Both the position numbers and the translations under genes were made by a program. A stretch of 64,000 bases of DNA from Campylobacteraceae bacterium (GTDB lineage Bacteria; Campylobacterota; Campylobacteria; Campylobacterales; Sulfurovaceae), in assembly GCA_027036015.1 (NCBI GenBank), contig JALVTH010000051.1, forward strand, positions 1-64,000. The letters are read 5' to 3'. The first letter of the stretch is position 1, and the number at the start of each line of letters is the position of its first letter. The notes under the pieces were generated by a model. That model was given only the letters and a program-made list of their open reading frames with translations. It did not search any database and had not been told where the DNA came from. Positions 1,310-64,000 of the stretch are shown piece after piece.

Positions 1310-1440
1310 TTCCAACTTGCCTTGCAATTAACTAAAAAATAGCAAATTGAAATATCTTGCTAAATTTCACAGTTAATATTTTACAACAATTATTAATTAA
1401 ATGTCAAGAAAGCTTTTTAGGGGACTTTGTGTAAGAAAAG

Positions 1441-1516
1441 TGGTGGCCGCAACAGGACTCGAACCTGTGACCACTACCATGTCAAGGTAGTGCTCTACCA
1501 ACTGAGCTATGCGACC
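1441..1516 (-). tRNA. tRNA-Val(GAC), CCA encoded
   Basis: Minus-strand GGTCGCA acceptor pairs with TGCGGCC+ACCA; anticodon loop TTGACAT; GGTTCGAGTCC T-arm. Confidence 0.95.
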
Positions 1517-43977: not shown

Positions 43978-43983
43978 TATAAT
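43978..43983 (+). promoter_or_regulatory. -10 box of candidate sRNA
   Basis: TATAAT, 6-7 nt upstream of the start of the first stem. Confidence 0.6.
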
Positions 43984-43989
43984 TGCAAT

Positions 43990-44112
43990 GTGTCAAATGC
44001 GAAACATTGTTTCCTCCTCCCCAAAACAAAAAGCATTTGACACCCTAAAATCATAATGTATTTCCTCCCCCTTACATTAAGATTTGGCCCCTTCAAAAGG
44101 AAGGGGCTTTTT
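43990..44112 (+). ncRNA. Candidate intergenic sRNA with C-rich anti-SD-like loops
   Basis: Stem 1 GTGTCAAATGC/GCATTTGACAC with internal TTGTTT-CCTCCTCCCCA-AAACAA; stem 2 TAATGTA-TTTCCTCCCCCT-TACATTA; terminator GCCCCTTC-aaaag-GAAGGGGC-TTTTT. Confidence 0.75.
44087..44112 (+). terminator. Intrinsic terminator of candidate sRNA
   Basis: GCCCCTTC/GAAGGGGC 8-bp stem plus TTTTT. Confidence 0.85.
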
Positions 44113-52417: not shown

Positions 52418-52578
52418 TTTTTAACTCTTTGATTTTTATAAATTTGTTATAAATATCAAAAATAATCCCTTTAATTTGAGATAAAGTTATTTATAAATTC
52501 TTAATAGATTCTATAAGTATAACAAAAGATTTTAAAACTTTAACAGACATTTAAGAAAAAATAAATAAAATTATAAAT

Positions 52579-52672
52579 GAGTCAAGAAAAAATCTTGACT
52601 CAGGGGGAGAGGAAATTGATTTTAGGGTGCTATTGGCATTCTAACCCGCAGATGCGGGTAATTTTTCGCTAC
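52579..52672 (-). ncRNA. Candidate second member of the C-rich sRNA family (or processed operon 3' UTR)
   Basis: Hairpin ACCCGCA/TGCGGGT, CACCCTAAAATCA + ATTTCCTCTCCCCCT, terminal hairpin GAGTCAAGA/TCTTGACTC. Confidence 0.55.
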
Positions 52673-52734
52673 ATTAATAATAATAATTTATTTTTCCTTT
52701 AAGTTTAATAAAACAACCCTCCTTTGTTGCTTTT

Positions 52735-53331
52735 TCATCTTCTCTCCTGTAAAAATTCATTAGCTTCAACATTATTTGGATCTAAAATCAAAATATTTTC
52801 ATAAATTTGTTTTGCTTTTAAAGGATTGTTTTTGGTAAAACTTTTTGCTAAAACACCCAAAAACAAGGTATTAGTTGGATAAAGTGCAAGCATTTTTTTT
52901 GCAATTTCTCTTGCCTCTTTTAAAGAGACTTTTTGTAAAAGCGCTAAAGCCAAATAGTAATTTCCATAAAAATTATAAAAATCTTTTTTCACAATAATAG
53001 TGCCAACATCTATTGCTTTATCAAAATTATTTAATGCTAAATAGCTTCTTTCTAAACCAATAAAAGCCTCCATTGACAAAGGAGAAGCAACTAAAGCCTT
53101 TTTATAATGGATAATTGCATTTTGATATTTTTTGCTTAAGAAAAAGAGCCAAGCTAAGCGTAAATTAATTGTATAACCATTTGGATATTTTTTATAAAGA
53201 GGTGTAAGCACTTTTATAGCATCAATAAAATCATTTGATTTTTCGTAGTTGTATGATTTTAGATAAATTTTTTTTATATCAAGCCCATATAAAAATGAAA
53301 AAAGTGCTATAAAAAACAAAAATTTTTTCAT
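52735..53331 (-). CDS. TPR repeat periplasmic protein
   Basis: Signal peptide and tandem TPR-like helices. Confidence 0.75.
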   Translation of the reverse strand: MKKFLFFIALFSFLYGLDIKKIYLKSYNYEKSNDFIDAIKVLTPLYKKYPNGYTINLRLAWLFFLSKKYQNAIIHYKKALVASPLSMEAFIGLERSYLALNNFDKAIDVGTIIVKKDFYNFYGNYYLALALLQKVSLKEAREIAKKMLALYPTNTLFLGVLAKSFTKNNPLKAKQIYENILILDPNNVEANEFLQERR

Positions 53332-55328
53332 GAAACTTTATCCTTTATCCTTTTTAATTGAAAATTTTTTCCTTCAATATAACTAAAGCCTTTTTCATAA
53401 AAGCTAAAGCCAACTTTACCATTTTCTGAAGCTACTTCTAAACGCTTTTTATAAAGCACAATCTTTTTATTATAAAGCTTATAATAAAACGAGAGAAAAA
53501 ACTCAATAAAAGCTGCTTTTATTTTGTTAAATCTAAGCTCCATTGGTAAAATATCTTCATAAGCTACTTCTTGAATAATTAAAGGGATTTTAGGAGCTAT
53601 CTTAAAGAGCTCTTGCAAATAACTTCTATTCCCTTCATAGCGGTAAAAATAGAATAATTTACTATCTAAAGCAAAAAAGAGTCTATTTTTTCCATCGCTA
53701 AAATAAAATTCTCCCAAATCATTCATTTGAACTTTTATTTTATACTCATTGCTATCTTGATCTTTAAATTTCATACAATCATCTAATATAAAATTTAAAT
53801 GAAGTCTCAAGCCCTTATCAAGCAAAGTTGCAGTAATTTTTTCATTTTTTTTGGGAGTTTGATAATAAATAAGCTTATTTTCTTGAATGTAATCGACAAA
53901 ACAAAAAGATAGTGTTTCGCTTCCTAAAGTAGCATATTTTTGCACTTGAATGTGAATATGAGGTTCGGGTGAATAGCCGCTATTGCCACACTTTCCAATT
54001 ATATCTCCAATTTGGATAAAATCTCCAACTTTAACTTTGATTGAATTTTGCATCAAATGACTAATTTCAACAAAATAACCAAAATTGCTTTTTATTATGA
54101 TATAATTGCCCCAATTATTTACTCTATCGACAATTCCAATTGGATTATCTGGTAAATCATCTCTTAAATCTACCACAACTCCATCAATTGGAGCTACAAT
54201 CTCTTTTCCAAAGGCATAATAATCTTGCAAAAAAAGTCCATCATTTTTATAGCTTTTGCCTTCTTTTTTGATAACAAAATCATAAGCCCATCTCCAAAGC
54301 CCCTTATGCGTCCAATCCCCATCAAAGCCTTGATAAACATCCCAAGTTCCTTGAAATGGGAGATGTATTTTAATTTTGTCGCTTAAAAAGCGATAATAAT
54401 TTGCCAAAAAAGCACTCAAAGAGTGTTCGGGCGATTCTTTGGGATTTGCGTTATAATACTTATAACCAATAGAAACAAGCAAAAAAAGCATTAAAATTGT
54501 TACAATATTAAAAGGCATTGTAAAAACTGGCAAAGCAAAAGTATTAAAAAATACTTCCATTGAATCTATTAAGATAACTGAGAGTGCTACTGCTATAAGA
54601 GATAAAAGATAATTTTTAATATTTGCAATTAAAAAAAATCCCCCAAGTGCCATGGCAATTAAAATAAAATTAAAATTATAAGGAGAATAAAGCGCCTCTT
54701 CAAATGGAACAAATATTGCATGCACCCAAACCCCCACCCAAAAACCAACAATTGCCATAAAAAGTAAAATTCTTGAATGAAAAAATAAAAATATTGCAAT
54801 GAAAAGCCCAGCAAGATTAAAGGGTAAAAAAACAATTTCTCCAAGCGCTTTAAAAAAAGGGCTAAAAGGAAGCGATATATCAAAAAGCACAGTTCTGTGT
54901 AAAATATTACTTACTAAATTGGTATATTTTAAACTTGCCAAATAAAAAAGCATACTACTTAAGGCAAAAGGAAGCGAAAGAATGGGTAAATAATATTTTG
55001 CAAAAACTTTTGAAAGTGCAAAACTAAGTAAAAACGTTAAAATTGCCAAAAGTATTGTTACAAAAATGGTAGATAGTGTGATTTGAAAATAAAACCCAAC
55101 CCCCATTCCAACTAACAAAGAGTTATATAAATAAAACCCATGTTTTAAATAAATTTCTCTCATCTTAATTAATTCAACAAAAATAATCGTTGCCACAATG
55201 GCAACTAAACCCAAAAAACCAACACTTGGCAAAAGAAAAGATAAAAGAAGCAAAAAAAAGCCAAAAAGATTGCTTCGTAAAAATAAGATAGAGTAATATG
55301 CTTTAAAGATAAAATAAAGCCGGCTCAC
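53328..55328 (-). CDS. Urea-transporter-like membrane domain fused to M23 (LytM) metallopeptidase domain
   Basis: N-terminal polytopic UT-like (YNSLLVGMGVGFYF; YNFNFILIAMALGGFF); C-terminal THKGLWRWAYDFV, ISHLMQNSIKVKVGDFIQIGDIIGKCGNSGYSPEPHIHIQV. Confidence 0.8.
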   Translation of the reverse strand: MSRLYFIFKAYYSILFLRSNLFGFFLLLLSFLLPSVGFLGLVAIVATIIFVELIKMREIYLKHGFYLYNSLLVGMGVGFYFQITLSTIFVTILLAILTFLLSFALSKVFAKYYLPILSLPFALSSMLFYLASLKYTNLVSNILHRTVLFDISLPFSPFFKALGEIVFLPFNLAGLFIAIFLFFHSRILLFMAIVGFWVGVWVHAIFVPFEEALYSPYNFNFILIAMALGGFFLIANIKNYLLSLIAVALSVILIDSMEVFFNTFALPVFTMPFNIVTILMLFLLVSIGYKYYNANPKESPEHSLSAFLANYYRFLSDKIKIHLPFQGTWDVYQGFDGDWTHKGLWRWAYDFVIKKEGKSYKNDGLFLQDYYAFGKEIVAPIDGVVVDLRDDLPDNPIGIVDRVNNWGNYIIIKSNFGYFVEISHLMQNSIKVKVGDFIQIGDIIGKCGNSGYSPEPHIHIQVQKYATLGSETLSFCFVDYIQENKLIYYQTPKKNEKITATLLDKGLRLHLNFILDDCMKFKDQDSNEYKIKVQMNDLGEFYFSDGKNRLFFALDSKLFYFYRYEGNRSYLQELFKIAPKIPLIIQEVAYEDILPMELRFNKIKAAFIEFFLSFYYKLYNKKIVLYKKRLEVASENGKVGFSFYEKGFSYIEGKNFQLKRIKDKVS

Positions 55329-56683: not shown

Positions 56684-57694
56684 CTATAACTCTTTCGTTT
56701 GTAAAAGTTTTGTAAAGTCACTAAAATCCACAACCTTCTCATCCACAAACCGCATATACATCTTTTCAAGAGGATACTCTAATTTCGTTTCAACTTTTTT
56801 ATTTTGTGCTAAATCAAGTAAAATTTTTGGCAAATTCACTCCTAAAGAGGTGGCAAAATAGAGCCAAGCTGGAAAACGAGGATTAATCTCTATAAGATAA
56901 ATATCATCTTGAGTAGCTATAGCTTCAAATTCAAAAGCCCCTTTCCATCCTACTTCTTCTACGAATTTTTGACAAAGTTTCAAGAGCTTCTCATTTTTAA
57001 TACTGATTGCACTCCACACTTTTCCAAGCTCAGTCGTGCTTAATTTCTTAATAGCAATTCCAGCTACTAAGCTTTGAGCATTAGCAACACCAATAAAATT
57101 AATCTCTTCACCACTGACAATTTCTTGCACTAAAAGTGGAAAACCCCATTCATTTGAGATTTTATAATAATACTCAATTGCTTCATCAAGTGTATTGGCT
57201 TTATAAGCTTTATAATAGTTTCCCTTAACCATCAATGGAAAGCCAAGCTCTTTAGTTGCATAAATTAAATCATCAAGCGAAGCAACTTCAATCGTTTTTG
57301 GATGCTTTGCCCCAATTTTTTGAGCAAGGCTTGCTAATTTGCTTTTATTTCTTAATTCAAAGCACTCTAAACTTGGCAAATAACTCTCAATGCCAAGCTC
57401 TTTAAATTCCTTTTGATACTTAATAAGCAAAGGCAATTCGGCATCTAAATTTGGAATTAAAAAGTCTATTTGAGATTTTTTCTTAATTTCAAGAAGACGC
57501 TTTTTAAACTCTTCATATCCCAAAGTTGGATAAGGCATAAGATAAACTTTTTCAAAAAGCCCTTGATAGATACCTGGTTCATTTGGATCGTAACTTAGCC
57601 CTATCAGTGAATGCTCATCATGCAAGCTTTTTGCAACACCAATTCCTGGAGCTGGATTATCGTTATTATTGAGTCCACTAATTGCAATTTTCAT
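56684..57694 (-). CDS. ATP-grasp ligase
   Basis: GFPLMVKGNYYKAYKA...LVQEIVSGEEINF...FEFEAIATQDDIYLIEINPRFPAW. Confidence 0.88.
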   Translation of the reverse strand: MKIAISGLNNNDNPAPGIGVAKSLHDEHSLIGLSYDPNEPGIYQGLFEKVYLMPYPTLGYEEFKKRLLEIKKKSQIDFLIPNLDAELPLLIKYQKEFKELGIESYLPSLECFELRNKSKLASLAQKIGAKHPKTIEVASLDDLIYATKELGFPLMVKGNYYKAYKANTLDEAIEYYYKISNEWGFPLLVQEIVSGEEINFIGVANAQSLVAGIAIKKLSTTELGKVWSAISIKNEKLLKLCQKFVEEVGWKGAFEFEAIATQDDIYLIEINPRFPAWLYFATSLGVNLPKILLDLAQNKKVETKLEYPLEKMYMRFVDEKVVDFSDFTKLLQTKEL

Positions 57695-57927
57695 TGAATC
57701 AGTCCATAGATTTTAAGTTTTTGTAAAAAATCTTCAACATCTATATAAATATCTTCCCATCTTTTATGATACTCTTTTGATAGAGTTTGCACTATTTCTT
57801 CTTTGCTTTGTCCCTCTTTTAAGAGTTCTATAACTCTTTTGGCACTCTCATTGAGTTCAAAAGAGCTCCCCAAAGAGGGAATAAAAGCAATATTATTCTC
57901 ATCAATAATCATTTCATTTAAAAGCAT
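57691..57927 (-). CDS. PqqD-like (RRE fold) protein
   Basis: 78 aa; FELNESAKRVIELLKEGQSKEEIVQTLSKEY....VEDFLQKLKIYGLI. Confidence 0.78.
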   Translation of the reverse strand: MLLNEMIIDENNIAFIPSLGSSFELNESAKRVIELLKEGQSKEEIVQTLSKEYHKRWEDIYIDVEDFLQKLKIYGLIQ

Positions 57928-62241: not shown

Positions 62242-63924
62242 ATGAGAAGTGATGAAATAAAAAAAGGATATCAAAGAGCACCGCATAGAAGCCTTCTTAG
62301 AGCAACAGGGCTAAAAGATGAAGATTTTGACAAACCATTTATTGGGGTTGCCAACTCTTTTAATGAGCTCATTCCTGGTCATTTTTATCTAAACAAAGTT
62401 GCTGAGATTATTAAAGATGAAATTAGAAAAAATGGCTGTGTGCCGTTTGAATTTAATGTCATTGGGGTTGATGATGGCATTGCAATGGGGCATGATGGAA
62501 TGCTTTACTCTTTGCCAAGCCGCGAAATTATTGCAAATTCAATCGAAACAGTTATGAATGCACATAAACTTGATGCAATGATTGGCATTCCTAATTGCGA
62601 TAAGATTGTGCCTGGAATGATTATGGGGGCACTTAGAGTTAATGTGCCAACTCTTTTTGTTAGCGGCGGACCAATGGCGGCTGGACATTTAAGCGATGGA
62701 ACACCAATTGATTTAGCAAGTGTCTTTGAAGGTGTTGGAGCTTTTGAAGCTGGCGAAATTGATGAGCAAAAACTCTATGAATTAGAGTGCAATGCATGTC
62801 CAAGTGGGGGAAGTTGCTCTGGAATGTTCACTGCAAATTCAATGAATACCCTAATGGAAGCTATGGGTATTGCCTTGCCTGGAAATGGAACAATCTTAGC
62901 ACTTACTAAAGCAAGAGAAGAGCTTTTTAGAGCCGCTGCAAGAAGAATTTGCGAAATTGCAAAAATGAACCAAGAAGAGCAAGAGCAATTTAAACTAAGA
63001 AATATCCTCAATGAAAATGCTGTGCATAATGCTTTTGTTGTTGATATGGCAATGGGCGGAAGTTCAAATACAGTACTTCATATGCTTGCAATTGCCAATG
63101 AAGCTGAGGTAGATTTTGATATTGCAAAAATTAATGAAATTAGCAAAGAGGTAGCTCATATTGCAAAAATCAGCCCATCTTTAACAACAGTGCATATGGA
63201 AGATATAAATCGCGCTGGTGGAGTAAGTGCGGTAATGAAAGAGATAAGCAAAAGAGGCAATATACTCAAAAATAATCCTGTGATTGAAGGGGGAATGCTT
63301 TTTGATAGGATCAAAGATGCTCAAATTAAAGACTATAACATCATTCACTCAATTGATAATCCATATAGCGAGGTTGGAGGCTTAGCAATCTTATTTGGTA
63401 ATTTGGCCAAGCAAGGTTGCGTAATTAAAACTGCTGGAATTGTTGGAGAGCGCCGCTTTAAAGGCAAAGCCATATGTTTTGATAGCCAAGAAGAAGCAAT
63501 TGAGGGTATTACAAGTGGAAAAGTAAAAGAGGGTCATGTCGTTGTGCTTCGCTATGAGGGACCAAAAGGAGGTCCTGGAATGCAAGAGATGCTTAGTCCT
63601 ACAAGTTTAATTATGGGAATGGGGCTTGGCGATAAAGTTGCACTAATTACAGATGGACGCTTTAGTGGTGCTACAAGAGGATTAAGCGTTGGACATATAA
63701 GCCCAGAAGCAGCAGAAGGCGGCTTGATTGCTTTAGTGCAAGATGGAGATGAGATTTTAATTGATGTAGATGAGTATAAAATTGAATTGCTTGTAAGTGA
63801 TGAAGAGATAGCAAAAAGAAAAGAAAACTTTAAACCAATTGTTAAACCGCTTAAAAGCCGCTGGCTTCGCCAATATCGCAAACTTGTAACAAATGCAAGC
63901 AACGGCGCAATTTTGGATGCATAA
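62242..63924 (+). CDS. ilvD: Dihydroxy-acid dehydratase
   Basis: [35 protein letters not shown]; start at [16 protein letters not shown]. Confidence 0.97.
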
Positions 63925-64000
63925 TTTCTTCCTTTATTGGGAGGATGTAGAGTTTAAATTACTTTTTTAACCTTCTTCCTCCCACTCACTACTCATCACT

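Follow-up and report, generated by a model that had tools for sequence, protein, structure and literature searches.

In Campylobacter jejuni, the small RNA (sRNA) CJnc190 represses ptmG by placing a C/U-rich loop on a G-rich ribosome-binding site (RBS), and CJnc180 antagonises CJnc190 (PMC8687705). RepG of Helicobacter pylori has a C/U-rich loop like that of CJnc190 (PMC8687705), aimed at G-rich mRNA leaders (PMC8322730). The locus considered here, 52579-52672 of a 64,000-nucleotide stretch of DNA (the window), carries an exposed C/U-rich stretch of the RepG/CJnc190 type on its minus strand, at 52602-52616. This stretch lies between hairpins and not in a hairpin loop, whereas its counterparts in a second bearer of the motif, the predicted sRNA at 43990-44112, lie in loops. 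Our preferred reading, which we hold tentatively, is that the minus strand gives rise to a 3′-UTR-derived, C-rich RNA resembling RepG and CJnc190.

An earlier note on this DNA had described a motif common to the two loci, and a re-reading of the sequence at both found its coordinates and letters all correct. As read on the plus strand, 52602-52616 is AGGGGGAGAGGAAAT and 52617-52629 is TGATTTTAGGGTG; on the minus strand, 52602-52629 consists of the 13-mer CACCCTAAAATCA (52617-52629) and then the C-rich, anti-Shine-Dalgarno-like stretch ATTTCCTCTCCCCCT (52602-52616). The second copy of the 13-mer lies at 44041-44053 on the plus strand, within the 43990-44112 sRNA, where 44041-44072 reads CACCCTAAAATCA, TAATGTA, and TTTCCTCCCCCT. 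The shared motif is thus confirmed at 52602-52629 (minus) and 44041-44072 (plus), with an identical 13-mer and, 3′ of it at both places, a near-identical C-rich block. The two blocks adjoin at the 52579 locus and are about 6 nt apart (TAATGTA) at the 43990 locus, and the C-run at 52602-52616 has one extra T relative to its counterpart. In the 1.69-Mb genome, the 13-mer has exactly three copies, the third of which (C41:483) is without the C block and, by inspection, sits in protein-coding sequence; among the places found genome-wide, both blocks occur together only at the two loci. The earlier note had proposed a genome-wide search for the motif; in this search the C motif TTTCCTCCCCC gave 16 genome matches with at most one mismatch against 32 for the reversed control, i.e., no enrichment of the motif alone. 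The joint match of both blocks, which was picked post hoc before its significance was tested by shuffles, reached 32.9 bits in a composition-weighted alignment, where C/G matches are weighted for the 31% GC window. None of 500 shuffles of the 43990 RNA reached this score in the window's noncoding sequence, and 1 of 150 did so against the whole window; the unweighted score was reached by about 5 of 40, which is weak. Beyond the ~25-nt block, alignment and shuffle tests found no similarity between the 52579 locus and the 43990 RNA. Because the likeness is significant when C/G matches are weighted and not when all matches count equally, we regard it as real, exceeding chance in the weighted test, but modest and short.

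On the minus strand, the TPR ORF (52735-53331), the last one of annotated size in its operon, ends at 52735 and the next terminator is reached at 52578, giving a predicted 3′ UTR at 52578-52735 for the RRE/ATP-grasp operon downstream of which the earlier note had placed the locus, a placing that our analysis supports. The terminator is an intrinsic one, with a stable stem and a T-rich tail (TGAGTCAAGATTTTTTCTTGACTCA then TTTATAATTTT, 52602-52578). With a score of −2.1 it ranks third among the window's minus-strand terminators, close to the eno-operon terminator (−2.6), and, as the only good minus-strand terminator downstream of the TPR gene, it is likely the operon terminator. Both flanking hairpins described earlier are present, this one at 52578-52602 and a 6-bp GC hairpin (ACCCGC/GCGGGT) at 52644-52659, which is followed by AATTTTT on the plus strand (weakly terminator-like) and by no T-run on the minus strand. 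In the predicted minus-strand fold, the 3′ C-run of ATTTCCTCTCCCCCT is 76–100% unpaired, and TTTCCTC about half. Since the C block lies directly upstream of the 52578 terminator, the operon 3′ UTR is the simplest transcript to contain it, and from its sequence the minus-strand locus is most plausibly this 3′ UTR. A scan for promoter elements found no dedicated minus-strand promoter standing out at the locus; of the two origins that had been suggested, a 3′-UTR position is supported, and an independent minus-strand sRNA is less likely than a 3′-UTR RNA. The operon content agrees with what had been outlined (ATP-grasp, PLP decarboxylase, urea-transporter/M23 fusion, and TPR, by Pfam), and a small PqqD-like protein, judged by eye, is encoded at 57691-57927. 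The fusion (53328-55328, minus strand) joins, by Pfam, a urea-transporter domain to an M23 peptidase domain, and is kept in genomes G005, G010, G006, and G004. A 16-codon ORF, MKKQQRRVVLLNLKEK, at 52688-52738 on the minus strand overlaps the TPR stop as ATGA, has an SD-like AGGAGAG upstream, and may in fact be the gene that closes the operon.

The other motif bearer, at 43990-44112 on the plus strand, is predicted to be an sRNA in which two hairpins present C-rich loops (GTTTCCTCCTCCCC and ATTTCCTCCCCCT) ahead of a strong terminator, as judged from its −10 element, fold, terminator, and loop accessibility. TATAAT at 43978-43983 ends 7 nt 5′ of G43990, the fold has a z-score of −6.3, the terminator is the best on the plus strand of the whole window, and both C-rich loops are unpaired in the predicted fold. 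With a promoter, two exposed C-loop hairpins, and a terminator, this locus looks like a proper sRNA. In this RNA the 13-mer runs from the end of stem 1 through a linker into stem 2, covering its 5′ arm; at the 52579 locus the 13-mer is predicted to lie between hairpins with its 3′ half mostly unpaired. A covariance model of the 43990 RNA (R1) finds its own locus, 43990-44112, at 161 bits but, even at E = 10, nothing at 52579-52672. The two loci are unrelated in promoter, hairpins, and terminator, and their likeness is confined to the ~25-nt block. The description of the loci as a two-member sRNA family in one window was too strong, because the covariance match is absent and the 13-mer is placed differently in the two structures; our modelling offers no evidence of an sRNA family. 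If the locus is merely an operon end, a 25-nt block shared in C-rich 3′ UTRs would be insufficient to call one. Neither the 52579 nor the 43990 locus has an Rfam match at gathering score, and the window yields only a tRNA and RF02194 near 1400. The RF02194 match (HPnc0260 antisense RNA, 1328-1479, plus strand) scores 68.2 bits against a gathering score of 59 and overlaps a tRNA gene on the opposite strand, at 1444-1516. This match, together with the encoded proteins, points to an organism related to Campylobacter and Helicobacter.

In same-genus relatives, the syntenic regions that were read contained neither element. BLAST of both loci, against 150 genomes each of the same family, returned short low-value pieces only and no C-rich homologue. 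A scan for the two-block pattern gave eight scattered matches in viral collections and seven in genome collections, in unrelated taxa, the seven being about the chance number as estimated by hand. In 175 family genomes, the covariance model gave its own match as the only strong one and no convincing relative; four further matches at E 0.03–0.1 were without consistent C loops. Exact copies of TTTCCTCCCCC in 150 family genomes lay mostly within or opposite ORFs at the 29 loci inspected; one, in genome G142 (L135, 1480-1550), is a long intergenic hairpin with TTTCCTCCCCCTTTTTCCCCC in a C-rich loop, an analogue of the 43990 C-loop sRNA in another genus.

For a 3′-UTR-derived RNA, we infer transcription, processing, and target pairing along the following lines. 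Minus-strand 52578-52735 would be the operon's 3′ UTR, closed by the intrinsic terminator, with the C-rich stretch exposed just 5′ of that terminator and able to pair with G-rich Shine-Dalgarno (SD) sequences. After release by processing, or while still attached to the mRNA, this 3′ end would act as a translational repressor of mRNAs whose ribosome-binding sites are G-rich, as CJnc190 acts via its C/U-rich loop. It would have its target-binding character in common with the 43990 sRNA through the short shared segment, and not as a structural copy. What was computed here is the sequence, the terminator, the accessibility, and the absent structural homology. A terminator among the best on its strand, a C-rich block largely unpaired in the fold, and a joint likeness to the 43990 RNA above shuffles when weighted for composition support this reading. 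A candidate pairing partner of the C motif is the SD-type site GGGGGGAGGAAATATG on contig C37, 5′ of a 43-codon ORF; it matches the second loop of the 43990 sRNA with perfect complementarity, and the predicted cofold gain is −16.4 kcal/mol for the 52579 locus and −10.6 kcal/mol for the 43990 sRNA. The ORF itself, MQSLLPINYDKKKKPKIDITCARKLLKWLLKFKQLFLLSQQAA (L108, 7167-7298), lies 3′ of this site and has no clear relative in the genus. Across 62 start regions of the window, the mean hybrid energy did not surpass that obtained with a shuffled sRNA, so a general anti-SD effect is not supported. Counting against a 3′-UTR-derived RNA are this mean energy, the C motif, unenriched genome-wide, the lack of a conserved element at the syntenic places read, and the presence in the window of another C-rich, G-poor 3′ UTR (63960-64000).

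It is also quite possible that the locus is an ordinary operon end, in which an unstructured 3′ UTR, rich in C, poor in G, and possibly Rho-related, precedes a terminator; it would then not regulate in trans, and its likeness to the 43990 RNA would partly be a coincidence between C-rich sequences. This explanation comes close behind the one we favour because the 3′ UTR of an ilvD-like gene in the window has the same character. There, downstream of a gene ending at 63924 whose sequence reads as a probable dihydroxy-acid dehydratase (ilvD-like), C exceeds G by 16 in 40 nt, compared with 13 at the 52579 locus, and this 3′ UTR also closes with a strong hairpin and a T-run. No other noncoding stretch of the window is as C-skewed as 63960-64000, which contains CTTCCTCCCACT and is followed by a strong terminator just past the window end. 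In the relative G005, the DNA 3′ of the orthologous operon is C-rich too (54 C and 16 G in 230 nt), without shared sequence. These 230 nt (L081), 3′ of the orthologous TPR gene, contain CTCCTAACCTCCC and ACTCCTCCT and have no convincing alignment to the 52579 locus. Operon ends rich in C and poor in G may be widespread in this lineage, with a possible link to Rho. An ordinary end also agrees with an unweighted alignment score that 5 of 40 shuffles equalled, and with neither element being conserved in relatives, by synteny or covariance model. However, C-richness alone does not explain the identity of the 13-mer, and the weighted score was reached by 0 of 500 shuffles in noncoding DNA.

An unlikely alternative is a short RNA encoded on the plus strand (about 52579-52668), which would base-pair over AGGGGGAGAGGAAATTGATTTTAGGGTG with the 43990 sRNA and be its antagonist (sponge) or its target. 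The earlier note had overlooked this complementarity. The candidate, ~90 nt long with a fold z-score of −5.7, has a hybrid gain with the 43990 sRNA of −17.9 kcal/mol with internal folding allowed for, against a background mean of −1.0 and unmatched by any of 600 random 90-mers; without intramolecular competition, the hybrid energy is −60, a value found in none of about 3000 background cases. Such complementarity is, however, the automatic outcome of the minus-strand similarity. A weak, possible −10 element, TAAAAT, lies at 52566-52571 on the plus strand, 8 nt 5′ of the hairpin starting at G52579, but TAnAAT is found at about 0.9% of noncoding positions on each strand, and in AT-rich DNA a lone −10-like hexamer counts for little. 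The plus-strand terminator is likewise weak (score −31.5) because AA precedes its T-run. CJnc180 acting against CJnc190 is a precedent (PMC8687705), and by analogy a CJnc180-like antagonist from the plus strand is possible, needing its own promoter to be real. We are slightly more doubtful still that 52579-52668 is specifically a trans-encoded antagonist that acts on an anti-Shine-Dalgarno sRNA, lineage-specific and 8.5 kb distant; the two would constitute an sRNA/sponge pair in a Campylobacter/Helicobacter relative. Finally, it is very improbable that each locus encodes, on its G-rich strand and behind an SD-like sequence, a short peptide beginning MILGC (ATG near 44055, minus; TTG near 52616, plus): M-I-L-G-C can be read by eye from both GGGGGAGGAAATACATTATG ATTTTAGGGTGT and GGGGGAGAGGAAATTG ATTTTAGGGTGC, but the shared part is five codons only, with an unrelated remainder, the frame at 52616 passes through the terminator-like hairpin, and the strong promoter and terminator of the 43990 locus are on the strand opposite to its MILGC frame.

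Among described RNAs, the rhizobial SmelA075 and SmelA099 carry C-rich anti-SD motifs (CCUCCUCCC) in hairpin loops on divergent stems (PMC3927594) and resemble the 43990 sRNA; they have three to four such loops, whereas the 52579 locus has one C block outside a hairpin loop. Mycobacterial B11/6C, with two C-rich loops able to pair with G-tracts in 5′ UTRs (PMC10470900), is like the 43990 sRNA in architecture, but it comes from an unrelated lineage, and the 52579 locus is without the two-loop layout. The 3′-UTR-derived RNA that we favour would be like CJnc190, for which a complementary RNA is known as antagonist, in directing a C/U-rich stretch at a G-rich RBS (PMC8687705). CJnc190 differs in that RNase III releases it from a precursor of its own and that its antagonist is encoded opposite; at the 52579 locus, the C-rich stretch lies within the 3′ UTR of an operon, 8.5 kb from where the complementary RNA would be encoded. 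RepG, likened here by its description, also aims a C/U-rich stretch at G-rich leaders (PMC8687705, PMC8322730), but it has a stand-alone gene and its binding site is a variable G-repeat. Should the C-rich 3′ end be active, the control of G-rich ribosome-binding sites by C-rich RNAs, as known in Helicobacter and Campylobacter, would operate in a relative too, and would also reach operon 3′ UTRs.
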